64,000 nucleotides of DNA from Camillea tinctor (taxonomy: Eukaryota; Ascomycota; Sordariomycetes; Xylariales; Xylariaceae): NCBI GenBank assembly GCA_022578605.1, contig MU394140.1, positions 1 to 64,000 on the forward strand. The letters run 5' to 3'. Position 1 is the stretch's first letter. Each line of letters opens with the position of its first letter. The notes beneath the pieces are model-generated. The model was not told the DNA's origin. It ran no database searches and saw only the letters and a program-made list of their open reading frames with translations. Of the stretch, positions 5,803-37,834 are shown in pieces. The position numbers and the translations under genes were made by a program.

Positions 5803-8800
5803 ATGTCTTCTGACGACCCAAAGTTCCACTCCAACACAGCCCCTGAAAGTTTGGCAGTAGAATTTTCCAAATTCTTTGCCGATCCTTTCAAGGTCGCTAA
5901 AGCTCTTTTGAAAGATTGTGCTGGCCTCTCGAAAGAGGCAACCATCGAAGAGCTCGTAGGCCTCCTCGATGAGTTGGTGCACAAGGATCAGGGCATTGAC
6001 GATAAAAAGGGGTAAATTTGACATTTGAGATTTAGATGGCTTGATCTGACAAACGACAATAGGAACACCGAGCTCTTAATGGGAATTCTATGTTCCCTTC
6101 CTCCCGACTCTAAAGCTAGAGAATTGCTAAATGAGAGGTTCCTCAACATTCTTTGGGACAGTCTTCAGCATCCGCCCTTGTCCTTCGTCAATAGTGATAT
6201 TAAATATGAGGTTATGGATCCTTCAGAGTCTTCTGACCAGCAAGATGTAGCACCTAATCTGCAAGATGCTATCGAATACAAGGCACCAGACAGCGACATT
6301 ATGCTACGTGTGCACCTCCCAGGGCCTCCTGATGGCCCCTATCATTACCGAACCCCCGATGGGAGTTATAACAACCCTCTACAGCCCAATTTAGGGAGGG
6401 CGGGCTCTCCCTACGCCAAGGCTGTAATAAACACGAAGTCTCTTGCTGGTGTCAGGCCTGATCCGGGACTGCTTTTTGACATCTTGATGGCGCGTGATGA
6501 TGATCACTTTAGAGAGAACCCAGCTGGCCTCTCTTCCATATTCTTTTACCATGCGTCCCTTATTATCCACGACCTCTTCCGTACCAGCAATACGAACCCA
6601 AATACGGCGGAAGTCTCGTCGTACCTTGACATGGCCTTCCTTTACGGCTCCTCTCTCAAGGATCAACTAAAGGTCAGAACCATGAAGGAGGGCAAGCTGA
6701 AGCCTGACGCCTTCCATGAGAAACGGCTCCTAGGCCAACCCCCGGGCGTCAATGTCTTGTTGGTGCTTTACAACCGCTTCCACAACTTCGCAGCAGATAT
6801 GCTTCTCAAGATCAATGAGAATGAGCGCTTCACGTTGACGTGTGGGCCCGATGCTAGCGCAGAGGAAAAGGCGCGTGCTGTTGCTAAACAGGACCATAAC
6901 CTCTTCAACACAGCTCGTCTGATCACCAACGGGCTATTTGCTAATATAAGCTTGCACGATTACATCCGAGGTATCATCAACACACACCACTCTAGCACTG
7001 AATGGACCATAGATCCGCGTACCCAAATACGCAAGCAATTTGACGGCGAGGGTGCGCCTCGAGGCGTCGGCAACCAGGTCACCGCCGAATTCAACCTACT
7101 ATATAGGTGGCATTCATGCATCTCCAAGAAAGATGAGCGTTGGACAAATGAGTTTTTCCTCAAACTCTTTCCAGGTCGCAACTTGGAAGACCTTGAGCAC
7201 GTTAGTGTACAGGAGCTTGGCAATGCTTGGCGCACCTTTCAAGAAAGTATCGACGAAGATCCTGGTGTTCGTACCTTTGATGGCTTGAAGCGTCAAGAGG
7301 ATGGTACTTTCAAAGACGAGGATCTCGTACGAATCCTCAAAGAGGGTATGGAGGATCCTGCCGGTACATTGTGAGTAGTAGTTTTTGGAGTCGTCCTTCT
7401 TCGAACACCAAATTATCCAATATGGCAATTACTAACTCCCGGTGCTGTAGTGGTGCACGTACAATTCCGAAGATCCTCAAATTTATCGAAGTCGCAGGAA
7501 TTATACAAGCTCGCAAGTGGGGGGTCGCGTCGTTAAACGAGTTCCGCGCGTTCTTCGGGCTCAAGAAACGGGAGAAGTTCTCCGATTTCAATTCGGAACC
7601 GGAAATCGCTAATATTCTGGAGAAGTTGTACACGCACCCCGACATGATAGAGCTCTATCCGGGACTCCTGATCGAAGATATCAAGCCTCAACGCAATACA
7701 GGTGATGGCTTGATGGCAACGTACTCGATGGGCCGTGCTATACTATCTGATGCCATCACCGTCGTGCGCGCCGATAGGTTTTTGACCATCGATTACAATG
7801 TCTCAAACTTAACTAACTGGGGTTATGCTGAAGTTGCTGGTGACACCAAGACCCTGGGAGGGTCTATGGCATGTAAGTAGTTTCTTGGGGCTGATCCCTT
7901 TTCGCTTTATGGCCTTTTCCGAAGCTAGTACCTAGTTAGACCTAGGTAGGGGTGTCGACCTCATGTTTATAATGTATACTCATGTCATTTGGAGTTGCTA
8001 ACTATCTCCGGTGCAGACAAATTGATCCAGCGTGGTGTACCTGGTTGGTTCCCTTACAACTCGATAACCGTCATGCAACCTTATTTCACCAAGAAGGCCA
8101 ACATAGAAATTGCTAAAGAGCTGGGTACTATCGACCAGTTCACTTTAGATGATCCGAAGCCACCCAGGAAGAATGTCACCTTGTTTAAAAGCGATTCTAT
8201 CAGACAAGTCTTGGGTAACCCTGAGGGTTTCATCTCGCCCTGGGCTATACCCATGAACGACATTTTCCCTGGGAAGATGAACATCAACTGGTTCATGCTG
8301 GCAGGCGATGAGCCGTACAACAAAGCCGACCGCGAAAACATGGTGAATGCAATGAGCAAATTCGATTTACCTGGCTTAATCTGGGAGTTTGTCGAGCGTG
8401 TGGGCTCAGCACTGATCCAAAAGGAGACGTTCAAGCTCAAGGAGGGGCTCCACCAAATTGACCTGATGCGTGATGTCGCCATTCCACTCAACGCACAGCT
8501 ACTGGCCGACCTCTTCTACATGGACATGAAGACTGATGAGAATCCAAATGGCGCGCTCAGTCGTGATGAATTCTATCACCACCTTCTCAATGTCCGCATA
8601 TGGGGTACCAACAACAACGACCCAGGCCAGGCCTGGAATCGGCGCCGACGCGCCCAGGAGGGTGCCAGAATCATCATAGATACTACTCGGAAGATTGTTG
8701 ATGAAGTCAATCACGACCGTGGCTCGGCTATCCATAGAGCAATTGGACGCAAAACCCATCTTAAACACGGCTCCCTACGCTCCTGCGGCTACAAGCTTGC

Positions 8801-9819
8801 CGAGGAATTCCTAAACCAACAAAGTCATATGCCGCTAGCTCGAGGAAGCGCTGTCAATAAAGTAACCGATATGCTATGGATCACTGCCTTTGGTGGGAGT
8901 GGTCTGGTAGCTAGTATAGTAAGTTTTAGTATCCTCCCAAATCATCTATACTTTTCTTACTGTCCATGGACCTTTTGTATCTACTGATCTGACTTGCCTC
9001 CGTGCTAAAATACTTGGTTTCCTCACTGCAGTTTTACGAAATCATGAGCTTCTTCCTAAAGCCAGAAAACGCATCTATATGGGCTGAGGTCCAGGTTTTA
9101 GCACAAAAGAACGACAACGACGCAAGTGAGTAATTTTGGGGGTCTTTGTCCCCGCCCTGTTATGGGAGCAAAAATTGCCTACTTTGCTAGGCGTATGTGT
9201 TTTTAATCCCGAATCATAATGACTGATTCCTTATGTTGTAGTCCGTGCCTACGTCATTGAAGCTCAACGCCTCACAAGCACACAGCGCACAATGCGTATT
9301 GCGAAAAAGCAGACTGAACTTGAGGGACAGATGATTCAACCAGGTAATTTTGTGATCATGATGATAGTACGTATACTCCTACATCAATACGAGAAATCAC
9401 TAGGTACTTATCACATCACTACCATAGGGGGCGGCTGGACGTAACCCCTCTGAGGTCACTGATGCGGATAAATTCGACCCGCAGCGCAAGAGCGATGCCG
9501 TGTCGCCCTTTGGCTACGGTCAGCATACATGTCCGATGCAAAACCTGATACCTATCTTCATGGCCGGGTTCGTAAAGCTTGTGGCTAGTCTACAAAATGT
9601 GCGCCCAGCACCAGGCCTAATGGGTCAGGTCAAGACCGTCCCATGGGGCCCTGAGACGATGTATCTAGATGAAACCTGGTCGTCCCTTAATTTCACCCCT
9701 AATTGTAGGTTTATTTACTTCATATTCCATGGACTATTTATGGGATATTCTTAGAAGAGACTGCTAACTACTCAACAGCATGGAAACTTCACTTCGACAG
9801 CTACGGACTAGGCAGATAA
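5803..9819 (+). CDS. ppo: Psi-producing oxygenase (Ppo): fatty-acid heme dioxygenase-cytochrome P450 fusion
   Basis: Exons 5803-6011, 6063-7370, 7451-7872, 8017-8918, 9032-9125, 9242-9366, 9428-9704 and 9779-9819 give 1125 aa, the usual Ppo/linoleate diol synthase length. The N-terminal half is the peroxidase-like dioxygenase: distal-histidine motif IIHD (His about 239), and YRWH holding the catalytic Tyr (about 417) and the proximal His (about 420). The C-terminal half is P450-like, with an ExxR motif (EAQR) and a heme-cysteine loop FGYGQHTC (Cys about 1055). These enzymes make hydroperoxides and diols of C18 fatty acids (psi factors) that steer sporulation and secondary metabolism. The P450 I-helix region (GLVASI/FYEIM) lacks the ANQxQ motif of diol synthases, so the final product may differ. 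Introns 2 and 5 belong to the shared intron family described separately. The paralogue (A, B, C or other) cannot be fixed by eye. Confidence 0.93.
7371..7450 (+). repeat. Introner-like intron A (Ppo intron 2)
   Basis: An 80-nt intron starting GTGAGTAGTAGTTTTTGGAG and ending ...TATGGCAATTACTAACTCCC plus GGTGCTGTAG. Its last 40 nt match the last 40 nt of the acetoacetyl-CoA synthetase intron at 35704-35882 at 33 positions, and all seven differences are transitions. GGAGT near the 5' end can pair with ACTCC just after the branch site. Confidence 0.75.
9126..9241 (+). repeat. Introner-like intron B (Ppo intron 5)
   Basis: A 116-nt intron starting GTGAGTAATTTTGGGGGTC and ending TGACTGATTCC...ATGTTGTAG. 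The 5' 15 nt equal those of the introns at 15836-15991 (minus) and 35704-35882. GGGGTC can pair with GATTCC through two G-U wobbles. The middle is diverged. Confidence 0.65.
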
Positions 9820-10837
9820 GAGGGCGACAAGCACCCCCATCTTGTAGGAGTATTGACATTAGATCTAGGGGGTCAAGAATCGGTTGTTGACCTAGAAAAA
9901 AAAGTCACTCACCTAGGTACTCAGGGCACTAGGACTCTTGGAACTTCATGTATTATGGGCAGACCTTCGAGGAAGACAGAGCTCCCCGATTAATGACCGC
10001 GTATTCTCCTATTGATACGTGGTGTGGCATTTTATTCCGTTTCAACTTTCAAGAGAAGACTCGTTGGCAGGCTTTACCTAATAAAGAACTTCAGATCAAA
10101 CAGCATTACACTCTACCTAGCTACATAGCCTGAATCCCTAGAAGAATAAAGAACTTTCAAATACCATCATGTTTTAAAAGGTGAGATGCAAATGAACAAA
10201 GCAGGATTATTAAGTTAAAAAATTATCTCTATGTTTGGTAAGTATGTGCCGTACCTTTAACGAGATATTTTCCTGCTGGCGACCCAGTTACTCATTAATC
10301 CCCTTCAAATACAGTATGTGAAGGGTCTTAATACGGTACTCAATTCCTATTACACTAACTGTCCCTAAGCTCTGCGGTGATGTGGTGGTTGCGTAAGACC
10401 GTCTCAATTCCTGTTTATATCTAGCATCCTCCTTATTATATTTCTTAGCCCTAGATCTTTTTAAGTTAAATTTCCTTAGTGCTTAAAATCAAAATAGTCA
10501 AATACTTTTACAAAAAAAGGGTTTAAACAATAACTTCTATGTAGTATGTGATTGTAAGACGTGTCGTGTTTTTTTCTCTCTCAGGTTTTGGATTGATGAC
10601 AAGTTCCTTGTAATCTAACAAAGAGACTCATTAATGGCAAACAAGAACAATCGGATTGTTAGCCAACAATTAACCAACACCATTGAATATCCTCTACTAC
10701 TTAGTGAAAGAGTTTATTTTGCCAACAAAAAAAGTATATATCCATCGATCATAGCCATCTCTTCGCCAAAATACTTTGCCATATAGTGTATCGGACCTTC
10801 TATAGGACATTTGTCTGAGGCATATATCTCACTCAGA
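9820..10837. other. Intergenic spacer
   Basis: Moderately AT-rich, with no credible coding region or RNA gene. Small open frames here (for example near 9948-10133) lack family motifs. Confidence 0.5.
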
Positions 10838-11509
10838 ATGATCATTGTTAGTTTACTTGGTATTCAAGGCAGTGGTAAGGGCACACTGGGTCCTCTCATC
10901 GCTGCAGAGTTTAGGCTCTATCACCTATCGATCGGAGAACTTTTGCGATCTGTTTGTAAACCTCCAATTCAAGGGGCTGGAGAATATATCAACGAGATAA
11001 TAAGGCATGGCAAGCTAGTTCCTGGTGAACTCGTTGATACCCTCAGCTTACCAGCATCAACTGCAGTCAATATCCATAATTATCGGATATTGCGCGAGAT
11101 CGTACCCTCGCACATCGCCTTCCCAGTTCTACAAAAGAAAATTTTAGAGCTTGAGGCTCAAGGTGCGTACAACGGAGTTCTTCTAGACGGGTTCCCACGA
11201 CAGCTCGATCACTACGAGGAGGCTCGAGAGCTATGCTTTGGCCCAAATTTCCCTACGCTTGTCATATACATTGACTGTCCCGTGGAGATTGCGCGAACGC
11301 GATATCTTTCACGTGCTAGAGATGGTGACAGTATTGCTGTCTTTGACAAGCGGCTAGCTCAGTTCCGAGAGCATACACCATCTCTTCTACAAAGATTTGC
11401 AGAGGAGAATATCCTTATAAGAACCATGAATGACGGCTCCATGACCGTCATGGAGGCATTTGAAGCACTAGTTGTATGTTTGAAAACCAATAATAAAATG
11501 CCGTTATGA
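10838..11509 (+). CDS. Nucleoside-monophosphate kinase-like protein (adenylate/UMP-CMP kinase family)
   Basis: A single exon encodes 223 aa. The Walker A loop GIQGSGKGT lies at residues 8-16. HLSIGELLR corresponds to the family's HLSxGDLLR nucleotide-binding segment. LLDGFPR matches the GFPR motif. A LID-like RYLSRARDGDS stretch and a RLxxFREHT helix follow. These features indicate phosphoryl transfer from ATP to a nucleoside monophosphate. The start at 10838 is chosen because the open frame upstream has no other ATG and the P-loop then sits at the usual distance from the N terminus. Asp to Glu in the HLSIGE motif and an unusual insert after LVDTLSLP suggest a divergent paralogue, not the housekeeping enzyme. 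It lies 1 kb downstream of the Ppo gene in the same direction. Confidence 0.85.
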   Translation: MIIVSLLGIQGSGKGTLGPLIAAEFRLYHLSIGELLRSVCKPPIQGAGEYINEIIRHGKLVPGELVDTLSLPASTAVNIHNYRILREIVPSHIAFPVLQKKILELEAQGAYNGVLLDGFPRQLDHYEEARELCFGPNFPTLVIYIDCPVEIARTRYLSRARDGDSIAVFDKRLAQFREHTPSLLQRFAEENILIRTMNDGSMTVMEAFEALVVCLKTNNKMPL

Positions 11510-12967
11510 GTTCTTGTATTTTAAGCTAGGCTGATCAGCTCTACCTATTGGCATGATCTTGATTTCACTCAGATGGGCTTAATACAGTTATCAACCGAAG
11601 ATCATAGATAAAATAGTTGGTGATGATTAAATAATGAGGATAATAATAACAACAACCGCACAGCTATAAACAGAGTGAATACAGGAATGTAATGGTTGAA
11701 AATCCGTTCTTAACAAAGTATATGATATGTATTTGAATCGTAATCTCCAAGCATGATCTTTCATCCTTCCATTGATTATCTCTGTATATTTACCTGTCCT
11801 ATGTCGAGTTGATCAAGCACCCCAGCTCTTACATTACACGGCAAGGCTGGTGACCCACCCTCATGCACGCTGTTTGATTAATGTATATGCTTGTTATCAT
11901 ATAATCAGTTTCCTACCTATTTGTGCTAATGTCAAATACTTTTTTAGGCACGGTCCTCTGATTCTTACGCATTTCCTTTATCCATTTACCTAGAGTGAGA
12001 CGATAGGTGAGGAAAAGGGGTGAGGAAAAGGGGTGAGGTATATTAGTCTAAGAGAGAGTCTGTTAAGGGGTAATATGCCTGTATTCAAGAACTACAATAA
12101 TTGTTTAGGCCCTCTTTCCATATATACGTCTAGTTATAGTATAGTACCGTGCAGTGGTGTGGTAGCCCCATATTCCAACACACCTAGCTGCGTTAAACAA
12201 TGCTTAGGGCCTGATAAGTACGTATTGGAGTCGTTAATCAAGGCGGATTGCGGATAAGGCTGTCAGGGGTTAGGTGGAACAAAGAAAGTGTTCCCATATA
12301 TTTATAACGGTGACATATTGCTGTAATTCTAGGTTTCTTGCACAGTAACACGGCGATTACCTACGCACCTGCTTGCGTGAGGAGCTGATAAGCCGAAGAG
12401 CTGAACCCTTAGTCCCGGAAACAGAACAAAGAAGCGGTTTGCATGTAAACAAACTGCTCCGCTCTGCGTGATCATCTAGGTAGCTTGGTTCTTCGCGCAC
12501 CAACAGTAACATTCCCCTCCCCTTAAAGCTCGCATCGTAACATTTAGTCTCTCGTGACAATAAACGAGTAACATCTCAATAAATGTTGGTATCTACAAAA
12601 CCAGAATGGATAGAAGCCAGAGAGTCACCTCCCGAGGAAGCAATGAACTACATTGCCGTTTATAATTAGGCCTTAGAACGTGTTCCTCGGAAGGTGTGGA
12701 CAAATACTTGAGGTTTGGTCATTCTAATTCGCTATCTGTCACGATTGGCTAAGCAGGGACTTTGGTACTCACGGCATCGTTGTTGTCCGCTACATATACC
12801 TAGATACTTCCTCCTCGTTCCTCGCAAAGGCATTGCTGTCATTTACCCTATGTTATACCATGCCTGAAACTACCTCCCTCCCCCCCTTACTTAGGTAGAT
12901 ACCAGGAAAGGCTGCTGACTGCTAGTCCTCCTTCGTTGAACAATTATCAGAACAGGCAAACTTGAAG
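11510..12967. other. Intergenic spacer with one dispersed repeat copy
   Basis: No gene is seen. It contains a short repeated GAGGAAAAGGGGT at about 12009-12035 and a copy of the TGTCA-type dispersed repeat from 12261. Confidence 0.5.
12261..12560 (+). repeat. TGTCA...TGACA dispersed repeat, copy 1 (interrupted)
   Basis: It starts TGTCAGGGGTTAGG at 12261 and follows the family sequence to about 12380 (CACCTGCTTGCGTGAGG). About 160 bp of other sequence then precedes a possible end, TCTCTCGTGACAAT, near 12547-12560. Related copies lie at 15363-15494, 25322-25445 and 26059-26223 (minus). Confidence 0.5.
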
Positions 12968-13956
12968 TCAAAAAATATTGTTCGTATAGAGAGAATCAAC
13001 TTCAACTTGCTTGGTCCACAATTCCCATGGTGTTTGCCGGAACCTCGTAGGAAGGTCTCGGGTGTCTTCTACTTGCTTCGGACCTAACGCCTCTATTCCC
13101 CCGTTAGACGCCGTGTCTGGGCTATAGTAGGCGTGTTGAAGCATTGCTTGCGACATTACCGCCAATGCTGCCTCCTTTGCATACACAGCTTGATACACCG
13201 CATCCTCGATCGTAGCGGCACATGTCGTAAATCCATGTTGTTTCATGAGCACGAAAACGCTTTGTGGAAAAGTTCCGTTCCCACCAAAAGCCTCAGCAAG
13301 GCTCGCACCGAACTTCTGCTGTGTGACCAGGTTGTCTTGAATATCGGTTGAATCGTACAGCTGTGTAATGTCCCATAGTGGAACGTTGTCACCTGCAAAT
13401 TGCTAAGTGTTCTTCCTTGATATTCTAATGTGCTCATACTTACCTAGATACCCAACCATGTGATAGACCGGTAGGAAAGGGATCTTGCTTGTAGCGAATG
13501 GGATTACTGCTACTGTATGAGCATGGACACAGCAGTTGATTCCAGAGAATCGCTTTAGAAGTTCGCTGTGGATAAATTTCTCCACGCGCTCCCTTCCGGA
13601 ATCTTGGGGGCGCACTGGAGACGCATCGGCGATATGGTAATATGCAAGATCGCTATCATTTGAAATGAGGGCAGAAGCCATCCCCTTTGCCATGATAAAG
13701 GTTGTTTTATCTTCCGGGTTTCGGATGGAGACATGTCCAAAAGCATCAACGATGTCATGGCGATCCAGAATGTGGTTCGCAGTAATATACTTGCGTTTTG
13801 TCTTCCTTCATATGTTAATGCTAAGCTGCTCCAAAGGATAGTCATCTTTTATACCTCTTTTAAAGTGGCTCGTGCGGCGCACTGTCGAATTAGGAGAACA
13901 AGTAGAACAGTGAGTTGGATCCACGCCATAATTTTTTGGGAAAGCATCGAAGCCAT
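12968..13956 (-). CDS. Class II aldolase/adducin-family protein with N-terminal hydrophobic signal segment
   Basis: Exons on the minus strand are 13956-13855, 13801-13444 and 13392-12968, giving 294 aa. Residues about 12-28 (WIQLTVLLVLLIRQCAA) form a signal peptide or anchor. The aldolase-II domain follows: ANHILDRHDIVDAFGHVS, then HAHTVAVIPFA with the paired histidines that bind the metal in this family, then VLMKQHG with the third histidine. Family members cleave or isomerise sugar phosphates or act as decarboxylases, so the substrate cannot be told. The signal segment is unusual for an enzyme family that is mostly cytosolic. It points to secretion or an endomembrane location, by inference only. 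It shares orientation with the secreted-protein gene upstream at 14519-15304. Confidence 0.88.
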
Positions 13957-14518
13957 GTTGAAATTAGCATACCGATCATCACGGCTCAGCTCTCGAAGAC
14001 CTGCGGGGTGAAAGACTGCTAGGTCTAAGGGGACGAGAGCATGAAAAGAAAGCATATATCCAACTGAGTGTGTCCAACTCAATTGCTTATAATACTATTT
14101 TGCATATGTGCGTGTTTTGTAATGTTCACGTCATGGCTGGCTTAAGACCGGAAAGCTGCATTTCCCTGGGTAGGAATAGACTAGTTGGTGTGACTTAAAG
14201 CGTAGTAGAAATTTTTGGTAGATATACTACATGTAACCGTCCATACCAGATATTTTCTTGCTACGGTGGAGGTGTAGCATTGAAATACCTTCACGATACC
14301 AACCCCCAACCCCTAACCCCCCTGTCCTTTCCCCTCCTTCCCCTTCTTTTACCCCCTTGATACTACGTGTCCATAGGGTAGTGTGAAGAAGGATATATCA
14401 ACGGAAGTAATATTTAGTCCACTTAACATCCAAATTATTATCAAGACATACCAGTCAACGGGTAAGAATTGATTGTATATACGGTATTTCGTAAACTATC
14501 TCTATAGTAAGGTGCTTA
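13957..14518. other. Intergenic spacer
   Basis: No gene is seen. A C-rich run with CCCCCAACCCCTAACCCCCC lies at about 14305-14325. Confidence 0.5.
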
Positions 14519-15304
14519 TCAAGCTCTCCCACGTGTCCTCGGCCGCAAGGAATATCTGGTCTGGGTGCTAACGCCATTGGCTTTCTTCGGCATCTGACCT
14601 GGTTGTTTGGTGCGCCGCCGACGGTCTAGCCAGGCAGAGTTTTTCCTGGCATTCTTCAGCGACTTCGATAGCTCAAAAACCATGCCTGTGTTGTAATCTC
14701 CGTCCTGCCGGACTTCAAATCCAGCCCGGCGTTCCTTTCCCTCCTTCATCTCGTAGAGCGTTGTGCCGTGGTAGTCCTTCGGATGCCACGCGGATACAGT
14801 ATTGCTTGCTGGTTCCATCATGATTCCATAGGAAGCCAAGTAGAAGTTACCTCCCTTAGTTGGGTCCTTAGGTGCGTGACAAGTATAGGCGAGAATCCAG
14901 TTGTTCCCATTGGTCTCTTTATGGGTGTGTCGTGCGTAGTTGATTGCTGATAATCCCGACGGTGGCGGCAGTTCCAGCCCTTCGAACGTAATATCGCCGC
15001 CGCTAGTTTTAAACGTAAATGTGTCGTCCTCTCGGCCCATGTCCATCCTAGGGAAATTGTTTTCCAAGATTGTATCATTGTAGTCATCAATTATCTCCGA
15101 TGGTAGACGAGATCTCATTGAATTCCACATAACCCCGGCCATACCCTGTGCTCGATTGTTCAGCTGCTCTTCGTTTATTCGTTTCGCCACAGTATTGAGC
15201 CGTAAGGAAGAAGCTGCTAGTTGAATTTGAGGATCGTGACGACTTCCACAGGTGTAGCCAAAATGCACCAGCACTATAATAGCCCACCACACATTAGCTG
15301 CCAT
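14519..15304 (-). CDS. Predicted secreted protein of unknown function
   Basis: A single exon encodes 261 aa. Residues 1 to about 20 (MAANVWWAIIVLVHFGYTCG) form a signal peptide. The mature part has an acidic stretch (LPSEIIDDYNDTILENNFPR), a compact Gly/Thr-rich central region (TFKTSGGDITFEGLELPPPS) and a WHPKDYHGTTLYEM motif. The C terminus is strongly basic (DRRRRTKQPGQMPKKANG and beyond). The mature protein has only one cysteine, in YTCHAP, so it is not a small cysteine-rich effector. I do not recognise the family. Position between the aldolase gene and the small gene at 15.6 kb, all on the minus strand, fits an accessory segment. Confidence 0.75.
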   Translation of the reverse strand: MAANVWWAIIVLVHFGYTCGSRHDPQIQLAASSLRLNTVAKRINEEQLNNRAQGMAGVMWNSMRSRLPSEIIDDYNDTILENNFPRMDMGREDDTFTFKTSGGDITFEGLELPPPSGLSAINYARHTHKETNGNNWILAYTCHAPKDPTKGGNFYLASYGIMMEPASNTVSAWHPKDYHGTTLYEMKEGKERRAGFEVRQDGDYNTGMVFELSKSLKNARKNSAWLDRRRRTKQPGQMPKKANGVSTQTRYSLRPRTRGRA

Positions 15305-15362
15305 ATCTTGAGAGCCAATTATGGGTGTTTCATCGTATAACTATGTATCAATAGGAAAGGAA

Positions 15363-15494
15363 TGTCAGGGGTTAAGAAGGAACAAAGAGGGTTCCTGTAT
15401 ATAGGTAAAATTAACATCATCCGTAGTTGTAGTCTGAGTTTCTCGCACAATAACGTATTAACTATCTAAGCACTTGCTTGGTCCCTCGTAACAA
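15363..15494 (+). repeat. TGTCA...TGACA dispersed repeat, copy 2
   Basis: It begins TGTCAGGGGTTAAG and ends GCACTTGCTTGGTCCC then TCGTAACAAT, about 130 bp. It aligns over its length with the copy at 25322-25445, including the shared core GTATATAGGTAA and GTAGTTGTAGTC. Short imperfect terminal inverted repeats (TGTCA...GGGG against CCCTCG...TGACA) suggest a small non-autonomous element. It has no coding capacity. Confidence 0.65.
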
Positions 15495-15571
15495 TAACAC
15501 AACCAGATATTGGTTGCATTCATCCTTTACGGTATCTAGAAGCGACTGATAATGGTTAAAATAACAGGAAT

Positions 15572-16186
15572 TCACCCACTTCCAGGGTCTTCGCGTCTGT
15601 CATCGCGACGATTCTTGACGATCTCCTTGCAGACTTCAACCATAGTTTCCCGGATATCTTCATCAGGGATGAAATCACGGATGATAACAAAAGACAGCTC
15701 TCCGGTATGTGCGTCTCGAAATATAACGCTTTCGTCTTGCCGTACGATATACCGAAGACGAGATTCGTCAAGGTTTAGAATATCACGACGTACGCCGCGG
15801 TGGTAACGAGGGTCCTTTAGTGGCTTGCCGTGCCACTAAAAATGCGGATAGTCAGTAATTGCCATATCGGGTAGCTTTTTACCCTTCGGACTGTGTCTCG
15901 GGAGCCAAACCCGCAGGCATAGCCATAACGAGCGGTTTCAACTCCCGGGACGTGCCGAAAGGGGAGAGAAACGATTCCCAAAATTACTCACGTACGTGTC
16001 CCATTCTTCCTTGGCCTTCTGGGTACCCGCTACATAAAAATCGTTGATAGGGTAGGGTTCCAACAACCGCGGAAGGTCCACAACCTTGATACTCTTGAGG
16101 AAAGCATCTCTTTGATCTGCAGTCCAATCTAGCCCTAATCTTTTACAAGCTTTGATTCCAGGAGGAATACTTCTGCGTGTCTTCAT
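15572..16186 (-). CDS. Small protein of unknown function carrying an introner-like intron
   Basis: Minus-strand exons 16186-15992 and 15835-15572 give 152 aa. The N-terminal part contains LDWTADQRDAFLKSIKVVDL and an EEWDTY/WHGKPLKD junction. The C-terminal part is LRYIVRQDESVIFRDAHTG, then ELSFVIIRDFIPDEDI, ending in a charged tail. There is no signal peptide or membrane segment. I do not recognise the family with certainty. The VIFRD...FVIIRDFIP pattern could be the start of a larger, now truncated fungal protein, but no downstream exon is visible. The single intron is a member of the shared intron family. Confidence 0.65.
15836..15991 (-). repeat. Introner-like intron C
   Basis: A 156-nt intron read on the minus strand: GTGAGTAATTTTGGGAATCG at the 5' end, CCCGGGAGTT and TTATGGCTATG in the middle, and ATATGGCAATTACTGAC near the branch site. 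It aligns over most of its length with the intron at 35704-35882 in acetoacetyl-CoA synthetase on the other strand, about 20 kb away. The intron is removed in phase 0 between EEWDTY and WHGKPL. Confidence 0.75.
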
Positions 16187-25445: not shown

Positions 25446-25546
25446 ATTACTTAGAATGCTTGTTGCCTCAGTACTTGCCTAACTTAGAAGTACCTACTCC
25501 GTAGACAACCTAGATAACCTAGAAGGTTTAATCTACCAGTCTACTA

Positions 25547-27316: not shown

Positions 27317-28911
27317 TCATATGATGCCCCCTGGCGGATCGTAACTGGCGCCTCTAGTATTCCCGGAATTCAGCCCAGCACTCCCCGGAGCCTCTGTGTC
27401 TACCTGAGCTGTGTTTGTCTTTCGCAACATGAACATGGGCTTCTTTCCCTCCTTGTCCAATTGTTTGAAAAGGATGAGCGGCTTCTCTTCTAATCCTAAA
27501 CATCGCTCTTGGTCACCGTAGACGATATAAAGCGCATACTGATCCCACGGAGCATTGATTTGGTACTTCTTGAGAGCAGCTGGGAGAACTTTGTAGCAAG
27601 GATCATCCATACTGACCCTGAATGACTTGAAGATCTCCACCGAAGCCGAGCTTGAACCCGGCGTTTCAGGTACCGGCGTTTGCATTCGGCGGGGTGCTAC
27701 GGGCTGTTTAGAATTGTAGCTGTGTTCGTTTTCGGAAAAGGTGGTGCGGCTGGACGGGGTTGTTTGGTCACGATAGGACCGAGAAGCAAGAGTACCGGAG
27801 CCCAAGGTTGGAGGTGATGTGGGCGAGGGTATATTTGGAGAATAGCCCGGAGAAGTTGCTTGACCAGAGCCGTTCATGGCGGCCAGATGTTGCGATGAGA
27901 GTACTGCTCTCTCGGCGGCATTGGCAGGGTCTAATGTTTGTTCTACAGAAGGCCGCTCGTGAGTGGTCTGTAGATGGGATGGAGAAGTGCTCTTAGGATT
28001 CGTACCCAGGACAAACTTTTTCGTGGAATACTGGCGCTTCAACCCAGCAGAGGACTGTGTCGATGCCGAGGCAGGGGCAGGAGGGGAAACCGTCGATGTC
28101 TCATAGCCATAGCTCGGATTATTCGCGACATTAGGTAATGGCTGCTGGGCATTCTTAGCAAGGCGCAGGGCTGGTAGCATGTCTTCGCGCAGGCGCCTGA
28201 AATCGTCGGTAAGCCGTCGTAAGTCTTGTTCCACCAAGCTCATTCTTTCATCACGTAATCTCAGCTGTTCGACAAGATGCTTGATGTCTTTTAGCGTCGC
28301 CGTGGCATACTGAGCCTCAGCATCGGCAGCTACGTAAATTGCCGATTAGCTTAGGAGTGGCTTGACAAAGTTTAGGGGAGATGATAGAACTACTCAGACC
28401 TACATAGAGGAACATAATGATCGCTCTCGATGGGGATATCCTGAGCCTTCTTGACATCGTAAACACTTTTCAAGATCGTTAAACGGTGGCCGACACTGGT
28501 CACGCCCATAGATTTCAAGTCGTCATGCAAAAGAGCGACCAGAGCCTCTCCGACAATCTCGTTTTCTAGCGACTAAGGTCAGAAAAGGACAGACAAATTT
28601 GGCGATTGTAGGATTGCAGAATTGCAAAACGCACCGATGAAGCGCTCTGAGTACTGTTGCAAACCGATGGTAGCAATGAAATCAGCGCACTCTTCCGCAG
28701 TCCATTCCGATATTATGGTCTCAGGGAGCCTGTCAGCACTGCTGCGATGTCCGTAGGTTGTGGGTGTGTGCTCAGCAGATGAACGGCCCTCCGAGTCAGT
28801 TGGAGAGATTTCAGAGTCGGTCGCAAGTACGGGCGAGCTCGTGTGAAGGCTTCTCTCGTATTCGTCGTCGGCGTCGGACTCGGCGTAGGCGGTACCCGAG
28901 TCGAAATTCAT
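27317..28911 (-). CDS. STE50: MAPK-pathway adaptor Ste50 (SAM and Ras-association domains)
   Basis: Minus-strand exons 28911-28635, 28565-28404 and 28329-27317 give 483 aa. The SAM domain (about residues 66-135) reads ISEWTAEECADFIATIGLQQ ... RFIENEIVGEALVALLHDDL ... MGVTSVGHRLTILKSV. A predicted coiled coil follows (LKDIKHLVEQLRLRDERM), then a Ser/Pro/Thr-rich linker. The Ras-association domain (about 375-465) starts EIFKSFRVSMDDPCYKVLPA and continues INAPWDQYALYIVYG. Ste50 holds the MAPKKK Ste11 through its SAM domain and binds Ras/Cdc42-type GTPases through the RA domain, feeding pheromone, invasive-growth and infection MAPK pathways. The acidic N terminus and long linker are normal for filamentous fungi. 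Splice sites are supported by frame and by the FIENEI junction. Confidence 0.93.
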
Positions 28912-29074
28912 GATGGCTACCTTTTGCGATGTGCCCAGTTTACTTTTAGCCCTTCATATACCTTCTCTTTCTCTTGTCTGTTTTCTTTTCCTTCTTTCTT
29001 TCTTCTTCTCTTTCTTGCGCGCGCACACACAGCACACGGCACACAGCACACACACACATACACACACACACACA

Positions 29075-29110
<36 letters not shown>

Positions 29111-30758
29111 CCCCTTCTTCGATTTCGATTGAGCTGGCCTCCTGGAAAAGAACTAGAGCGTATGCACAGGACGTAGACAGCGCTCTGTCGAGGAATATGT
29201 GCCAGTCAAGGTGGGAAGGAAAGGCGGGATTGATGGTGTAGGATGGAAAGTTGAGATGTCGGAAAGGGTGAGAGAGTTGGTAGAAGTGCGTCAATGTTGT
29301 TAGAGACGGACTGTCGTGGACGACGGGATGGATGGTGCATTTGAGAGGTACGGGCTTATGGCTCTTAGCCTGACATGCACGAACCCCCCACTCATCTATA
29401 CCCAATGGGGTACTATCCGCATAGCGGACCTACCTGCTAAAGGTAGCTAGTACAGTCCTCCTCGCCGAAATACGATAACCAATGTATGTATCCACTACCT
29501 TAGCAGCCGCTTCCACCAGAGTGGACACAACTAAAAGGTTTGTGGGGCCAGGCACTTACCACACTCCATTCAATTTCTGTACCTACCTACATAGTACTGC
29601 TAGGTACCTACATTTCTCATACCTCTCTCATTCTCTCTACTTGCCTACAAAGCTCACTCGGCCCAAGCAGCCAAGCACGATGCTACCTTTCCATATGTCA
29701 ATGTAACTAAGTCATTGATGCCTCAATCTCGTCCTACTGCCCTTTCAGTAAGCCGTGTAGAATAAATAAAATTCTCTAGTTGAAGGCGCCGATACTAAAG
29801 GTACAAGTAGTACCCACCTACCTGGGCCATTCAGGAGTTTTGACTACACTACCTGCTACGACAACATGCAGTTTCGACCATGCTAGACCCCTTAAACACA
29901 ACCTGACCACCGGATTGGATATTCAAGCGCCGTCGAACAAGTGTGTATATGTGAATAGCCGCCATTTCATTAAGGAATATAAGCCTAGCGTTACATTCAT
30001 TGCCTGTATCATATTCTCGGCATCGTAAGAGTTCAATCCCGTCTCGTCCTTCTGTCTCGTTCTCGTCTGCTTTCATAACCTGTGTTCTCCAACCCTGACT
30101 TATCCTCGTTCGAAGCATCCTCTCCTGGTCCTAACGCTCTACCGCAGCGTTTCAGCGGCCCCATCCACCTTCTCATCACATAATTACTACTTAACCACTA
30201 ACCACTACACTGTATCACTAGACCAAAACTCCATTCGCTATCTAAACACCTCAAACCTGATGTGGTAATTAGGATTGATATCTCAAGAATCTATGTCGTC
30301 TTCAAGTATTAAAACTTCCCCTTGCCGCATACAGAAGTTCAACACTGATGGGTTGCACCCGTGTTTCCCTTCGTTTTCGGCAAAGCCTCGTACCGTATCG
30401 CATAGATGAGAGTAAATCTATCATCCAAGGGAGGAATACAGCAGTAAGTACAATGTCAGGGTATCTATGGCTCGTGATGCTTTTAGCAGACAAGGAAAAA
30501 GTATGCTCTAGCGCCTCTCTCACCCGTATGACGTGCCGCTCCGTAGAAAGAAGAGAAGTAATGAAGCGAGCGCGGGCTATCCTCCCCACTCCCACCTTAT
30601 CCCAGCCAGTCATGGACCATGTCATCGATCATCTATTACCTCAACTCCGAGGCGCCCTAGTTTGAGAGTATATCCCTTCCCACACGCCATGATAAAACGC
30701 CGATCATGTCTCCCCAAAAATTCAACGTAGTCCTTGCATCTAGTGGAGGTTTAAAGGT
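28912..30758. other. Intergenic spacer with CA/CT microsatellite
   Basis: A compound (CA)n-(CT)n microsatellite lies at about 29022-29107, within the probable STE50 leader. Open frames over it are repeat artefacts. I see nothing further in the remaining 1.6 kb. Confidence 0.6.
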
Positions 30759-32762
30759 CTACCGAAGCCTGACTTTGGCGTCAGCCGCGCCAAGGGCGAT
30801 GACATCCTCCAGAGACCACCGGGGCGCCTCGATAACACCCTCGAGCCCATTGGCCCTGCGCCAGGCAGCCTCGTTCTCTGGGGACACCCCTTCAGGAAGA
30901 GGCTTAAGTCCACCTGCAATGCCCGTGGAAAACTTCAACTGGAGAATGTCACCCACTTCATCGCAAGCCGCTAGTAGCCGGTCCAAGTCGTCTTTGTTGT
31001 GGGCTGAAGACACACAGAATCGAGCACGAGAACTAATGAGGGGTGTCGCAGGGTAGCCAACCACTACCACCGAGATCTTGCGCTTGAGCATTTCGTGGCT
31101 GAAAGCAGAAATCTTGGCTGGATTGTACAGAGCAATGGGGATGATTGGGGAATCGTCATGGCCATAAACAATCAAGCCGAGACGTTTCAACCCAAGGCGG
31201 AGATAGCGCGAGTTAAAGGCGATACGCTGCAAACGCTCCTCGCCCTCGCCGGGGACCATTTCTCCAGTAATAATTTTCAATGAAGCCAGAATTTGCATCA
31301 ACACGGCGGGAGTGGGGGATTCGCCGAGCATAGTTGCCGCATTGGTACTTCTCAGCTTGTCAATGATATGCTTGTCGGCCGCAACGTAACCTCCATTCGC
31401 ACCGAAAGACTTTGTCAAGGTTCCCATCAAGATATCGACTCTGCTCGGGTCAATTCCGAAGTAATCACAAATACCACGGCCGTTGGGTCCAAGAGCACCC
31501 ACGCTGTGGGCTTCGTCGACGTATAGGGCAAACTTGTAAGTATCTTTGAGATTCAAAATGCCGGGTAGGTCACACATGGTACCCTCCATGGAATACAAGC
31601 CCTCAACAGCAACCAATATCTTTTTCCAAGGACGATGAGTTCGCGGTTGGCCCTGAGCAATAGCCTCTCTCAGACGCTTCTCCAGGTCCATCATATCATT
31701 ATGCTTAAAGGATCGGATAACGGCACCTGAGAGACGAGCGCCAAGACGGATGGAGGCGTGGTTCAGCTCATCGGATAGAATGAGACACCCTTTAGATACA
31801 AGAGCAGGGAAAGAACTGGCATTGGTGACAAAGCCCATAGAAAATACCATTGCAGAAGGCTTGCCAACGAACGCGGCGATTTCCCTCTCGACCTCGCAGA
31901 CAAGGTCGGAAGTACCGGCATCAGCGCGAGAACTACAAAAACTCAGGCCAAATCGACGAACACACTCCTCGACAGCATTAGCACAAGGACCCTCAGATTG
32001 AGCAAAGCCAAGGTAATTGTAAGAGCTCATGTTCAATGTCTCAGTAGTGGTGCCTAGGTAGTTGTAGGACTCATTGAAGTTGTCCGAGACGCGATCCATG
32101 AGGTTGATGAAACGACCAGGGACACCAGTGCTGGTTCTCGCAAAGACATCATCAATGCGTAGCTTCAGTCGTCTAGTGTAGAAGCTATCGAAGTCGTCAT
32201 TCAAAGGTGCGTAGCCATTGGCTGCCCTAAGCGTCCTGTACAAGGGTTTTTTGCTGAACCTTTTCCCAAAGAAATCTCGGATATGGCCAAGAGCAAGAAG
32301 CAAAAGATAGCTGATGTAGGTGGTAAGAACATAGTAGTAAGGCGGCTCATCGATGACAGGAGCCTGAAGCGGCTCGCCATGATGCTTGCTCACGTATCTG
32401 TGAGTCGGATGGAGAAGAGGACCAAACTGGGCCTCGAAGCGCTTCTGAAGAGAAGTCTCCGAGGAGGATGTAGGCTGGAAAATCGTTTTCGGTGGCTCAT
32501 CAGCATGAGGTTCGCTAGTAGCAACAGTCGATAACGAAATGCTGGGCAGAGATAAGCCGGGACCCGTGATAGAGGGGGTCGAGTTATTCTGCATGGCCAT
32601 TAAGGCCTGCTGTGCCGAAAGCTGATCCTTAGCCTTTGGCGACGACGAGAAAAACTGGCTGAGACGGTTGCCCCGGGATTGAGAGGGTCGTCTCTCACCG
32701 GGTCTCTCGGATTGGGACATGGTGCTCGAACCAGTGAAGGGGATCGATATCTTTCGTGGCAT
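30759..32762 (-). CDS. LCB2: Serine palmitoyltransferase subunit 2 (Lcb2)
   Basis: A single exon encodes 667 aa. It condenses L-serine with palmitoyl-CoA to 3-ketosphinganine, the first step of sphingolipid synthesis, together with Lcb1 at the ER. A Ser-rich N-terminal extension precedes a membrane segment at about residues 142-160 (YYYVLTTYISYLLLLALG). The alpha-oxoamine synthase fold follows: DELNHAS with His335 that stacks on PLP, YVDEAHS with Asp416 and His419, and GTLTKSFGANGGY with the PLP lysine at about 451. All catalytic residues are kept. MSQSERPG at residue 15 is a possible alternative start. Absence of introns is notable next to intron-rich neighbours. Confidence 0.97.
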   Translation of the reverse strand: MPRKISIPFTGSSTMSQSERPGERRPSQSRGNRLSQFFSSSPKAKDQLSAQQALMAMQNNSTPSITGPGLSLPSISLSTVATSEPHADEPPKTIFQPTSSSETSLQKRFEAQFGPLLHPTHRYVSKHHGEPLQAPVIDEPPYYYVLTTYISYLLLLALGHIRDFFGKRFSKKPLYRTLRAANGYAPLNDDFDSFYTRRLKLRIDDVFARTSTGVPGRFINLMDRVSDNFNESYNYLGTTTETLNMSSYNYLGFAQSEGPCANAVEECVRRFGLSFCSSRADAGTSDLVCEVEREIAAFVGKPSAMVFSMGFVTNASSFPALVSKGCLILSDELNHASIRLGARLSGAVIRSFKHNDMMDLEKRLREAIAQGQPRTHRPWKKILVAVEGLYSMEGTMCDLPGILNLKDTYKFALYVDEAHSVGALGPNGRGICDYFGIDPSRVDILMGTLTKSFGANGGYVAADKHIIDKLRSTNAATMLGESPTPAVLMQILASLKIITGEMVPGEGEERLQRIAFNSRYLRLGLKRLGLIVYGHDDSPIIPIALYNPAKISAFSHEMLKRKISVVVVGYPATPLISSRARFCVSSAHNKDDLDRLLAACDEVGDILQLKFSTGIAGGLKPLPEGVSPENEAAWRRANGLEGVIEAPRWSLEDVIALGAADAKVRLR

Positions 32763-34837
32763 CTCTAGAGCTGTCGCGTTGGATTCGAGGTTGATTAAGT
32801 AATTAAAGACCTAGGGAGATAGGATTTGCGTAGGGAAAAGAGATAGGGTTTGTTGATGACCGGAAGCACAGGTCTATATGAATTTTACCTGAATGCTGTT
32901 GAGTAAATTGAAAACAGTTAGAGGAGCTGGTGCGATAAGGCAGCGTGGGTCATGAGCCATGCAATGGTTTAGAGTGGGCAGAGTAATGGACGCGCAACAG
33001 AACAAGTCAAGCTTGTGGCGGTGGGAAGGCGAAGACTCGACATTGACGTAGACCGTGCATACAAAGAGACGGTGGGTGGTAAGAAAAGAAGAGCAAGAGG
33101 CGGAGCTTACAATGACTTGTTTTCTTCCTAGGAAGCTACTGAATGTTCTTCTTATGTTTTTTTTTTTTTTTTTTCGAGAAAAAAGATCTTGTCAACAATT
33201 GTCCTTTGAAAAAGGGGTGAGGACACAGAGTTGCAAGTTGAATAAAAGGAGTGGCAGGGAAGAAGAGATCCCCCAATTAGGTAGCTTTAGTAACAAGTGA
33301 ATTAAAAAACAACAAGACGTTTTCCTACTCTCTCGCTCACATACTCACTCACAAGCCCTTCTCTTTTGAAAGGAAAGAGAAAGAATTCGGAAGAGATGTT
33401 GAGGTTATCGGTGCTCGCAAGAAGGAGGAGGGGCGAGACAGCGAGGGAGTATGTCAAAGGAAAATGTGAGGGAAGAATTGGGAATTAAGTCAGTCGAATG
33501 AAAAAAATCGGTTTATACAAATGGGTACATAAGTAGGTGCTGTGTAAGGCCGGTGTAAGGCAAAGCTAGTTTGGTGCAAAGTGGGTCTACTATGTGCACT
33601 AACTTACATAGCTACACCACATACAACTAAATTGGACAAATCCTCTACTCGCACGGTATGAGTAGGAGCTATATACATAAGCTTGTAATCAAATTTATTA
33701 TGTCGGAGCAAAATCTGCTCATGGGTAGCCCCATGTAACTTGCATATCAATGGCCTTTCCGAGTGATCCGTGCCCCATTAATGTTCCCTTTTGGATGTAC
33801 TTCCATTGCTGCTCGCATCCATCGAGGTATCCATCCTACCCATTACACTACCTAGTACTTATGTATCTCCCGTCACACACCAGGTAGCTACATGCCTATC
33901 TCAACGGTGATACACCTTCAGCTTGCTTTCTTTCTTTCTTTCTATTTCACAGCAACAGCCAGCAACTCTTTGCCGCCTTGTCAAATTAAAGCACCTAGCA
34001 TCCTTGTTATTTAAGGATCATGGTAGAAACTCTCAACCCCTCCCCCTTCCGTCATTTTAATCAACATGGCTTGATTTCTTGCCTGATGATTTGCCTCATG
34101 CTGTCTTAAATAAATTTAGATTACCTACCTAGGTAATTATGAAAGTTAAATTGTGCATTTTGTATATATACTTTATATGCAGAGACGCCTACAACATCCC
34201 TCGTCGTTCTTTTATATGTACTGAATGCATCCTTACTTACAGCTACACGCTATAATGGTACAGCCGCCAAGGGAGAAAAAAACAACAACAATAACAACCA
34301 CAAAACAGAAACCGTATCAATGTTCGAACGTACATATAACCTACGTGACGTGTATGACATATGCAGGTATTTCGGTAAGCATAAAGTAGGTGTAGAAGAT
34401 AAGCAAGATGATGCATTCAAAGCCATATTGATTTACTTCTTGGTCGGCAGAGCATACACTAGAAGAGTCTTTACCCCATCGACAATCCTCAACCAAGGTA
34501 TGTACAGAGTAGGTAGGAGGTATACCTAGGTTAACCTAAGTATGTCAATTTATGTGTGTGGCTTGACAAATCTGACCTCCGGTCCGAAGCCCGACCTCAA
34601 TAATTTATTAGGTCAATTACTTATGTATTTGTAGCCTTCTCGGCCTCTATCGGGACATGCCACTACTTTCGGAGTTCGTAAGTCCTTACCTAAGATATTC
34701 TCTACTCAACGACAACAACAACAACTGCTTTCATCTTACATTATATGAGAAAGAAAGGTTGCTGGTTTACTCGTGTCACATATTCTTTTATATCTAAATA
34801 TCGAAGCAATAATAGTTTGCCAATTTCCCCCCTAAAA
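32763..34837. other. Divergent promoter region between LCB2 and the acetoacetyl-CoA synthetase gene
   Basis: No gene is seen in 2.1 kb. It holds a T tract at about 33158-33174 and several TACCTAGGTA-like motifs (for example about 34126 and 34521). Both flanking genes are transcribed outward. Confidence 0.5.
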
Positions 34838-37834
34838 ATGACTGTCGACACTAATACCTCCGCAGCTGTCGAGCTATGGCAGCACCCAAACCCGTCTTCG
34901 ACACGCATGTCCGATTTTCTACAACATGTGAAATCCAAATATAATGTAGATATTGATGACTATCCGGGACTATACAAATGGTCCATCGAGAATATCTCGA
35001 GCTTTTGGGCCGATATATGGCACTTTTGCGGCATAAAGGCATCTAAGCCTTACTCTGAGGTTAGTGCTGAGTCCTACGTTACAAGCTGCTCTATAGTCAC
35101 AAACAATCCGAAAATTATTATGACGACTGATGATTTCGGACTCGTTGATTATCACACCTCTTTTTTTTTTTTTTTTTTTTTTTGTTGTTGTTGCCTTGGA
35201 GGGGGGTTAAAAAGGCTCCCCGTGCTTGATCTGATACACTACTTTCACCCTCTCAGGTATATGTATAACTAATGGCTTCGTAGGTGCTGCCAACTCACGC
35301 ACCCCTATACCCCAGGCCGGATTTCTTCGCCGGGTGTCTCCTCAATTTCGCGGAGAATCTTCTGTACCCGGAAAATTCCCAGGTGTTGGAGTCTTCTGTT
35401 GCCGTCATTACGGCTACCGAAGTTGAAGGCCAACTGGAGTCAACGACCTGGGCCGAGTTGCGTGAAGCGGTGCGCATGTGTTCCAATGCGCTGAGGGCTG
35501 CTGGCCTCAAGCCCAACGATGTCGTGGCTGGTTTTATCTCAAACCACGTCCGGGCGCTTGTTGCGATGCTAGCTTCTGCTTCAATAGGCGCCATATGGAC
35601 TTCCATAAGCCCAGACAACGGTGTAAGTGCCGTGTTAGATCGACTAGTGCAGACTTCTCCTAAAGCCCTCTTTGCCGACAACGGCACGATCTACAATGGA
35701 AAGGTGAGTAATTTTGGGAGTCGTTTATTTCCCCTTTTGGTCTGTCTGGGCTCGGCCCGGGAGTCAACATTTCTTATCATGGCTACGCGTATGGGTTCGT
35801 ATGAGTTTTGACTCGCGAAACATGGTCTCAGGAGTAGAACAAGATTACCCAGTATGGCAACTACTGACTCCCAGTGTTGTAGTCATGGTCAAGTACAGAA
35901 AAAACTTCTCAGATCGTTAACGAGTTGCGGATCAACGGTCTAGAGCTTGTCGTTGTCGTCAACAATATCCAAGATTCCGACTTGGGCTTAGAGAGGTTGA
36001 GGTCAACTGGGCTCACGGTAGAAGAGTACGAAACATTTCTAAAAGGGTACGTGGTGTGGCTGTGATTAGAATATACCCTTTGTTTACGTATACTAATGCC
36101 GATAGACAGCGCTCCCGATAAACCGCTAGCATTCGAACAGCTACTCCCGTCACACCCCCTCTACATATTATATTCCAGTGGAACAACCGGGTTGCCCAAG
36201 GCCATCGTCCATACAGCATTAGGTACACTGATTCAGCACAAGAAGGAACATTCACTCCATTGCTCTCTGGACTCCTCTTCTCGTATGCTTTATTATACAA
36301 CCACTTCTTGGATGGTATGTCATTTCCTAAGTTGATTCGGTTAATTTCAGTACATGTTGGCTATCAAAACCCTCTCCAGCCCTGATTTGAAAATTATATT
36401 TATTCCTATCGTGCACATTGGATTATATTTACCTAGGTACTAACGCCATAGCCCTTAAGATGTGGCACTGGAGCATATCTGCTCTAGCTTGTGGTACTAC
36501 TCTTATTCTATATTCAGGCTCCCCGTTCAAGCCACATGGATACCTATCAATGCCAAAATTGCTGTCCTCACTCAAGGTTACTCATTTTGGTACATCAGCT
36601 GCGTATCTCTCGACGCTCGAAGTAAATGACATTTGTCCCTCGAAATCACTAGACCTCTCCCAACTACAAGCCATTTACTCAACAGCTTCCCCACTGCCCC
36701 CATCGACATTCCATTTCGTATACAACGCCTTCCCACCGCATGTTAACCTAGCCTCTATCACGGGCGGAACGGGTATGTAATTCTGATAGTTAACTTTCTC
36801 CTTTTCCTTTCATTTTATCGAGTGCATGATCCCATCCCTATCTGTCCTTGACCCAGCGTATCCAGTTTCAAGAATCGATGCAACCAGCCTGCTGAGATGA
36901 ACTACTAATTAGACATCATTTCCTTATTTGGCGCTCCATGTCCACTACTTCCCGTATACGCTGGGGAAATCCAATGTGCCGGCCTCGGGATGGCCATCGA
37001 GGTAGTAGACTCGATTAGCGGCCAACCTACTCCTGGAGAAGCTGGCGAGTTGGTGTGTACAAAACCGTTTCCCTGTCAGCCATTAACGTTCTGGGGTCCT
37101 TCGGGTGATGCCAAATATCGCGCGAGTTACTTCGAGCGTTTTGAAAATATGTGGCATCACGGAGATTTTGTCCGAATCGACCTAAAAACGGGTGGCTTGA
37201 CAATGTTGGGTCGAAGCGAGTAAGTGATATAGGGGTCAACCCCCTCCCCTCCAGCGGCCGATGTATCTCGGGATGGTAAATCGCCTCTTAAAGAGGACTT
37301 GGCGCATAGGCTTTTATTCCCAAGACACAATAAGAGAAAAAGAAAAGTGTGGCAATTACTGATCCTTAATGTTGTAGTGGTGTCCTTAAACCGGCCGGCG
37401 TGCGATTCGGCAGTGCTGAAATATACAATGTATTAACTAAGTTTTTTGGGCGAGAGATTGAGGACGCCGTATGCGTAGGTAGGAGACGAGAGACGGATCG
37501 TGACGAGACGGTCTGCCTATTTGTTGTCATGGGTGAGAATCAAGAGTTCACAGATGAGCTCCGAAAGCGTATACAAGAAACGATCCGAAAAGAGCTCAGT
37601 CCGCGGCATGTTCCAGGTGTTGTAGAAGAGTGCGGCGCTGGTATCCCTAAAACGGGGAATGGTAAAAAGTAAGTCGACTTTCTCATCATAACCCAGTGCT
37701 AGGGACTAACCCACATTAGGATCGAGGTTGCTGTGAAGCAGATCCTCTCTGGCATCAATATCAAGGTGAATGCAAGTATAGCCAACCCCGAAGCTCTAAG
37801 GTGGTTCCGGGAGTGGGCAGCTAGTCATGACTAG
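34838..37834 (+). CDS. Acetoacetyl-CoA synthetase
   Basis: Exons 34838-35059, 35284-35703, 35883-36046, 36110-36314, 36460-36772, 36913-37219, 37378-37668 and 37720-37834 give 678 aa, the family's usual length. It activates acetoacetate to acetoacetyl-CoA with ATP, feeding sterol and fatty-acid synthesis. Domains: the N-terminal ACAS_N region (WQHPNPSSTRMSDFLQHV); nucleotide loop YSSGTTGLPKAIVH at about residues 290-303; WMMWHW; GTGDIISLFGAPCP; HHGDFVRID; the hinge and A8 motif GVRFGSAEIYN; and PKTGNGKK with the catalytic lysine near the C terminus. One splice acceptor (36109) was chosen over a nearer AG because only it keeps the frame. Intron 1 (35060-35283) contains a run of about 23 T. Introns 2 and 6 belong to the shared intron family. 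Confidence 0.93.
35704..35882 (+). repeat. Introner-like intron D (acetoacetyl-CoA synthetase intron 2)
   Basis: A 179-nt intron starting GTGAGTAATTTTGGGAGTCG and ending TATGGCAACTACTGACTCCC plus AGTGTTGTAG. It has a perfect 7-nt complement, GGGAGTC near the 5' end and GACTCCC overlapping the branch site. It is the longest and best conserved member and matches intron C along most of its length. Confidence 0.8.
37220..37377 (+). repeat. Introner-like intron E (acetoacetyl-CoA synthetase intron 6)
   Basis: A 158-nt intron starting GTAAGTGATATAGGGGTCA and ending GTGTGGCAATTACTGATCC then TTAATGTTGTAG. AGGGGTCA and TGATCCTT can pair over 8 bp with two G-U wobbles. The 3' module matches the other family members, while the interior is diverged. 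Confidence 0.65.

Follow-up and report, generated by a model that had tools for sequence, protein, structure and literature searches.

Where new spliceosomal introns come from is an old open question, and the window analyzed here (64,000 nucleotides, bases 1 to 64000 of contig C90 of a fungal genome) raises it at five places. A sequence-only reading of the window had noticed five similar introns in three unrelated genes and had proposed that they are introner-like elements of an active or recently active family, perhaps outside the group in which such elements are known. The question is whether these introns are one family and, if so, how its copies came to lie in unrelated genes.

Related introns in three unrelated genes

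All five introns were confirmed as exact GT...AG introns (Table 1). The host genes are indeed three unrelated ones, with A and B sharing the Ppo-like gene and D and E sharing the synthetase gene; in the Ppo-like gene, an An_peroxidase domain spans the joined exons around intron A. A family profile built from 54 copies, which included C and D and left out A, B, and E, matched all five introns and thus bore out the proposal that they belong to one family, the match to intron A covering its 3' part and that to intron B part of its length. The 5' block described as common to three of the five was recovered, with GTGAGTAATTTTGGG opening B, C, and D. Within their last 40 nt, introns A and D show seven differences, every one a transition, as had been pointed out; this is nothing special, however, given that 1943 of the 2872 departures from the consensus in 91 copies are transitions.

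Table 1. Positions, host genes, exon junctions, and profile matches of the window introns and of the two conserved blocks of intron D (the caret marks the insertion point)
Feature	Position	Strand	Length (nt)	Host gene	Flanks	Phase	Profile E value	Remarks
Intron A	7371..7450	+	80	Ppo-like gene	TT^TGG	2	2e-5	Deletion form; copy outside model
Intron B	9126..9241	+	116	Ppo-like gene	A^TC	1	4e-9	Copy outside model
Intron C	15836..15991	-	156	Small gene, function not assigned	TAC^TGG	0	8e-27	Copy itself in model
Intron D	35704..35882	+	179	Acetoacetyl-CoA synthetase	AAG^TCA	0	2.5e-43	Copy itself in model
Intron E	37220..37377	+	158	Acetoacetyl-CoA synthetase	GA^TGG	2	7.5e-9	Copy outside model
5' block of intron D	35704..35722	+						Donor GTGAGT plus GGGAGTC
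3' block of intron D	35853..35871	+						TATGGCAACTACTGACTCC; contains branch-point motif CTGAC

Elsewhere in the window, positions 1 to 4000 are very AT rich (GC fractions of 0.22 and 0.14, versus about 0.46 elsewhere) and hold many short tandem repeats; this stretch may be a decayed repeat region. It is adjoined by a tandem repeat at 4134 to 4245 with a 34-bp unit, 3.3 repeats, and a 98% match.

Family size and distribution in the genome

The genome searched comprises 44,688,122 bases in 154 contigs. The profile search gave 182 matches, from which we removed 38 that overlapped a better match and 30 duplicates, leaving 114 distinct copies in the retrieved genomic DNA rather than the five alone; many of the 38 overlaps were one copy matched on the other strand, because the element is similar to its reverse complement. 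For 92 of the 114, the two ends and six or more flanking bases are available. Single queries recovered the family as well: the consensus gave 40 scored matches of 108 candidates, with identity of up to 92% over 177 nt, intron C gave 14 genome matches, and intron D gave 32 including itself, 26 of which cover at least positions 1 to 165. The 3' block occurs at 149 genome sites with at most three mismatches, compared with 5 for a reversed control, and that of intron D, with one mismatch, is among them; the 5' block occurs at 85 sites, compared with 4. A two-marker estimate from 88 3' block sites (at most two mismatches), 85 5' block sites, and 43 common to both gave ~174 copies in the 44.7-Mb genome, which is probably too low because degenerate copies miss both markers together. 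The exact 3' block had no match in viral contigs and two in prokaryote genomes, about the chance level for 19 bases in 257 Gb.

Ordinary introns also have donor and branch motifs, so such likeness could in principle reflect chance resemblance of splice signals, or else old introns carried along in duplicated host genes. Against this stand the likeness over 177 nt at up to 92% identity, the varied and unrelated proteins of the host genes, and two other introns of the Ppo-like gene, used as controls, which matched nothing in the genome except themselves. Together with block counts far above the reversed control, these controls show the likeness to exceed chance. For the copies tested, chance or host gene duplication is refuted, and we regard it as extremely improbable for the family as a whole. 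The introns almost certainly constitute one introner-like element family, a view supported by the 114 copies in unrelated genes and by two sites that are intronless in paralogues (see below).

Copies tend to cluster. Within 2 kb of each other, the 140 placed copies form 11 same-strand pairs and 1 opposite-strand pair, compared with 0.87 expected in all, although one of the 11, on contig C78, may be a single interrupted copy. One alpha/beta hydrolase gene (locus L014) contains three copies, at positions 620 to 786, 967 to 1125, and 1501 to 1676 of the locus, and two of them split Met codons. Seven placed copies lie on C74 (195 kb), four on C90 (144 kb), and four on C109 (88 kb), and the large contigs C2 (1.79 Mb) and C11 (0.83 Mb) carry nine each; the family may favor some genome compartment.

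Anatomy and divergence of the copies

The copied unit runs from GT to AG, and beyond it the copies have only a short target motif in common. Both ends were called in 93 copies, of which 79 begin with GTGAGT and 12 with GTAAGT, 92 end in CAG or TAG, and all contain a branch-point motif within the last 40 nt. Their lengths range from 120 to 193 nt and are mostly 150 to 190 nt; deletion forms are shorter, such as intron A and two copies of 55 nt. Upstream of the branch point, the conserved block contains TATGG, the same letters as the target motif described below, an observation that carries no inference because copies found through the block are biased toward keeping it.

Identity to the consensus is 58 to 93% (median, 83%) in 91 copies. 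The closest of all pairs of these copies are 88% identical, and the median pair is 70% identical. Near-identical copies, a sign of ongoing activity in some but not all published introner families, are absent among the 91. The proposal that the family is active or recently active was not borne out, with the closest pair just 88% identical and the best consensus match at 92 to 93%. There was no strong CpA signal of repeat-induced mutation, with C-to-T rates of 0.209, 0.164, 0.137, and 0.121 before G, A, C, and T, respectively.

The consensus is a long, imperfect inverted repeat

The consensus aligns end to end with its own reverse complement (score of 109, compared with a maximum of 78 in 200 shuffles) and folds as a hairpin in which GGGAGTC of the 5' block pairs with GACTCC of the 3' block. 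The predicted fold has an energy of -59.2 kcal/mol, compared with -38.95 on average for shuffled sequences (z of -5.06; none of 200 shuffles as low), and only 3 of its 62 pairs are G-U. Single copies are less regular. The folds of introns D (z of 0.02) and E (z of 0.58) are at chance and that of C is not (z of -2.68), and the mean z over 91 copies is -1.57 against mononucleotide shuffles, with 36% below -2, compared with +0.43 in ordinary introns (n = 20). RNAalifold predicted no pair on 54 copies, and the pairs of the consensus fold were therefore counted instead. In these 54 copies, the consensus pairs were kept in 82.9% of cells versus 82.5% when the two sides were dealt independently, so compensating changes were not detected; covariation was marginal, with a score reached by 13 of 500 shuffles and four other measures reached by 39 to 261 of 500. 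The stem does not extend into the exons, whose flanks are no more complementary than expected by chance (lowest P, 0.08). We read the hairpin as belonging to the source of the copies and as not being maintained by selection after insertion.

A whole-length inverted repeat poor in G-U pairs is also what one would expect of a DNA transposon of the MITE type, with complete splice sites in its inverted-repeat ends and an enzyme, itself unseen, that prefers a short target without duplicating it. The ends of the element, however, are exactly the splice sites, which counts against such a transposon; the insertion sites and the orientation of the copies, to which we now turn, bear on it further.

Insertion is seamless at the aligned sites

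No residue was gained or lost across the junction at the seven sites that were aligned. At intron E, the joined exons give a gapless alignment with a solved acetoacetate-CoA ligase, and the same was obtained at copies L051, L014, L006, L017, and L105. The first Met codon split in the hydrolase gene L014 corresponds to Met in 117 of 120 homologues and to Leu in 3, with no indel within four residues in any of the 120; at the third copy, 51 of 120 homologues have Met, 52 have Leu, and one has an indel, and the second copy, in a stretch unsuited to judging, was left out. Intron A was not counted as a test of seamless insertion, since its PDB alignment begins only at the junction, and two further PDB searches gave one spurious match and one empty result. 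Two sites have intronless relatives: two GH13 paralogues in the same genome continue through the L051 site without an intron, and 22 of 24 other P450 matches run through the L041 site, the other two ending before it to judge from the listed ranges.

Target duplication was absent both at offsets of 3 to 6 nt over both junctions (75 copies) and at single positions (92 copies), where one pair with a P value of 0.022 among 52 tests equals the chance expectation. There was no locus-specific repeat between the flanks and the intron ends. AGTG at both junctions was considered as a duplication (28 seen versus 23.5 expected) and was rejected because the mRNA would then end one base short, against the protein alignments. 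We also rejected an element that brings A...TG and adds a Met, as six phase 1 sites show a homologue residue at that place and no gap. Of 92 copies, 73 have A, C, or T as the last upstream base and 5 have G as the first downstream base, so the target supplies neither AG nor GT as a rule.

The lack of a target duplication weighs against the DNA transposon. It agrees with a model proposed for the stwintrons of Xylariales (PMC12403724), in which a terminal stem stabilizes an intact intron RNA that becomes incorporated at a double-strand break as it is repaired and is then turned into DNA; seamless insertion without duplication and complementary consensus termini are features of that model. Random sites are a further feature of it, and here the family departs from the model.

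Copies prefer a short target, phase 1, and the sense strand

What is new here is a strong target preference, YA^TGS. Among the 92 copies with complete flanks, 49 have A at -1, 78 have T at +1, and 67 have G at +2, and A^TG is found at 39 of them, compared with 1.6% of nearby exon positions (282 of 17539, insertion sites included). The 22 copies retrieved after the motif had been seen repeat it, with A at -1 in 12, T at +1 in 19, G at +2 in 16, and A^TG in 10. Ordinary introns lack it: in a control that is small because codon-usage prediction yielded only 20, T at +1 was present in 4, G at +2 in 1, and A at -1 in 4 (P of 4e-8, 1.5e-8, and 0.012, respectively, Fisher's test). Copies nearer the consensus are richer in the motif than those farther from it (0.91 versus 0.80 for T at +1, a difference that is not significant at this, the sole position tested [P = 0.14]; 0.83 versus 0.64 for G at +2; 0.63 versus 0.47 for A at -1). 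Subject to that lack of significance, the gradient points to a motif that arises in the insertion step rather than through later selection. The preference also argues against capture at random breaks, an explanation that we consider improbable for this family. A short target motif is, on the other hand, common among transposases.

Phase was assigned in reading frames predicted from the sequence. Codon usage gave scores for 90 copies, of which 32 were dropped and 58 passed the limits, with 13, 41, and 4 in phases 0, 1, and 2, respectively; the best call for all 90 gave 24, 55, and 11. When upstream and downstream sides were scored apart, 52 of 70 copies were coding on both, and 42 agreed (15, 25, and 2) and 10 disagreed. 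Open-frame length alone gave 16, 35, and 6, with 13 of 70 ambiguous, and the 20 control introns gave 8, 8, and 4. A Met codon is split in 24 of the 58 copies, and 7 of the 58 lie directly before a Trp codon. The motif alone predicts 13.3, 27.1, and 17.7, compared with the 13, 41, and 4 seen (P = 1.4e-4), and among ^TG sites there are 2 phase 2 copies where 17.5 are expected. In these predicted frames, phase 2 is scarcer than the motif accounts for, although the shortage is not absolute, since window introns A and E are in phase 2. It is conceivable, if doubtful, that insertion reads the target as a codon, with phase 1 copies entering inside ATG and phase 0 copies immediately ahead of TGG. If true, target choice would take place on translated mRNA or through something that follows the reading frame, and the family would offer direct evidence of an RNA target in intron gain.

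Orientation was assessed in 70 copies flanked by 120 or more bases on each side. The sense strand scored higher for coding in 61, in 45 of them clearly; the antisense strand scored higher and above the limit in 3 (L022, one of L036, and one of L063), and 10 scored as coding on neither strand, so a few copies could be intergenic or antisense. A bias of 45 clearly sense copies to 3 antisense ones counts against a DNA transposon, and with the exact splice-site ends and the absence of duplication it makes that explanation unlikely, though it deserves to be kept in view.

Copying probably proceeds through intron RNA

Given that the copied unit is the spliced intron and that copies are mostly genic, in sense, and scarless and have an inverted-repeat consensus, an RNA route fits, and copying by reverse splicing is the probable mechanism. 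The unit of multiplication would be the intron itself, from GT to AG. Spliced intron RNA, its ends kept together and perhaps protected by the hairpin, would be reinserted into another transcript or into DNA and then copied into the genome; the hairpin would decay thereafter because an inserted copy needs only its splice signals. RNA copying with a stem that holds the ends together has been proposed for other fungal introners. Splicing of the copies themselves is predicted from reading frames and protein alignments. For the reading as a whole, an introner-like family that appears to have spread as spliced intron RNA, we estimate a probability of about 0.58. Reverse splicing alone, however, predicts neither the A^TG site nor the phase 2 shortage, the inverted repeat would also suit a DNA transposon, and the copies retain, on average, somewhat more structure than mononucleotide shuffles.

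Scarless insertion, self-contained splice signals, an inverted-repeat consensus, and a short target translate into measurable predictions, and those of this family distinguish among reverse splicing, break capture, and DNA transposition. Copies that often lie within an ATG codon offer a way into the question of how introns arise.

Comparison with known introners

Protein matches identify the host as a Biscogniauxia or a very near relative, in the Xylariales and not in the Dothideomycetes. Two Biscogniauxia mediterranea entries match the serine palmitoyltransferase of the window at 98% identity and B. marginata matches it at 94%, with other matches at 89% or less among the best 120 of 5067; for a second host protein, identity is 91% to Biscogniauxia sp. 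FL1348 and 81% to B. marginata (best 120 of 1299). The suggestion that the family lies outside the known group was therefore right as regards the Dothideomycetes, but similar stwintrons and canonical introns derived from them have already been published for Hypoxylaceae and Xylariaceae (PMC8469720, PMC12403724). No title among the papers listed reports introners in Biscogniauxia, and an earlier report may stand in a supplementary table; the main text of PMC12403724 names neither Biscogniauxia nor Graphostroma.

The introner-like elements of the Dothideomycetes Fulvia fulva, Dothistroma, and Zymoseptoria (PMC4457414) resemble the present family in being canonical introns with many similar copies in unrelated genes, sometimes several per gene, and they are described as having stable structures or inverted repeats (PMC8469720). 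They differ in occurring in another fungal class and in preferring AG/GY sites (PMC8469720) rather than YA^TGS, and the present family has no near-identical copies.

Closer in host are the sister [D1,2] stwintrons and type 2 cropped canonical introns of Hypoxylaceae and Xylariaceae (PMC8469720, PMC12403724). As described there, these share with the present family the order, a symmetrical sequence, near-terminal complementarity, seamless insertion without target duplication, and the loss of symmetry in older copies. The available text of the two papers reports no exon bias, and that of PMC8469720 reports no phase bias. The present copies are single introns and not nested ones. In a [D1,2] stwintron, the internal intron lies between the G and U of the external donor, with G before it and TRWGY after it; in the flank sequences, G^TG was present in 8 of 92 copies, and none of the 8 continues as TRWG.

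The DNA transposon introners of algae and protists (PMC9860276) also comprise many spliced copies, and part of those families have inverted repeats, but the present family shows no target duplication and takes no splice site from its target. Ascomycete introners appear in the same account as outliers without TIRs or TSDs (PMC9860276); in contrast to them, the consensus of the family described here is an inverted repeat.
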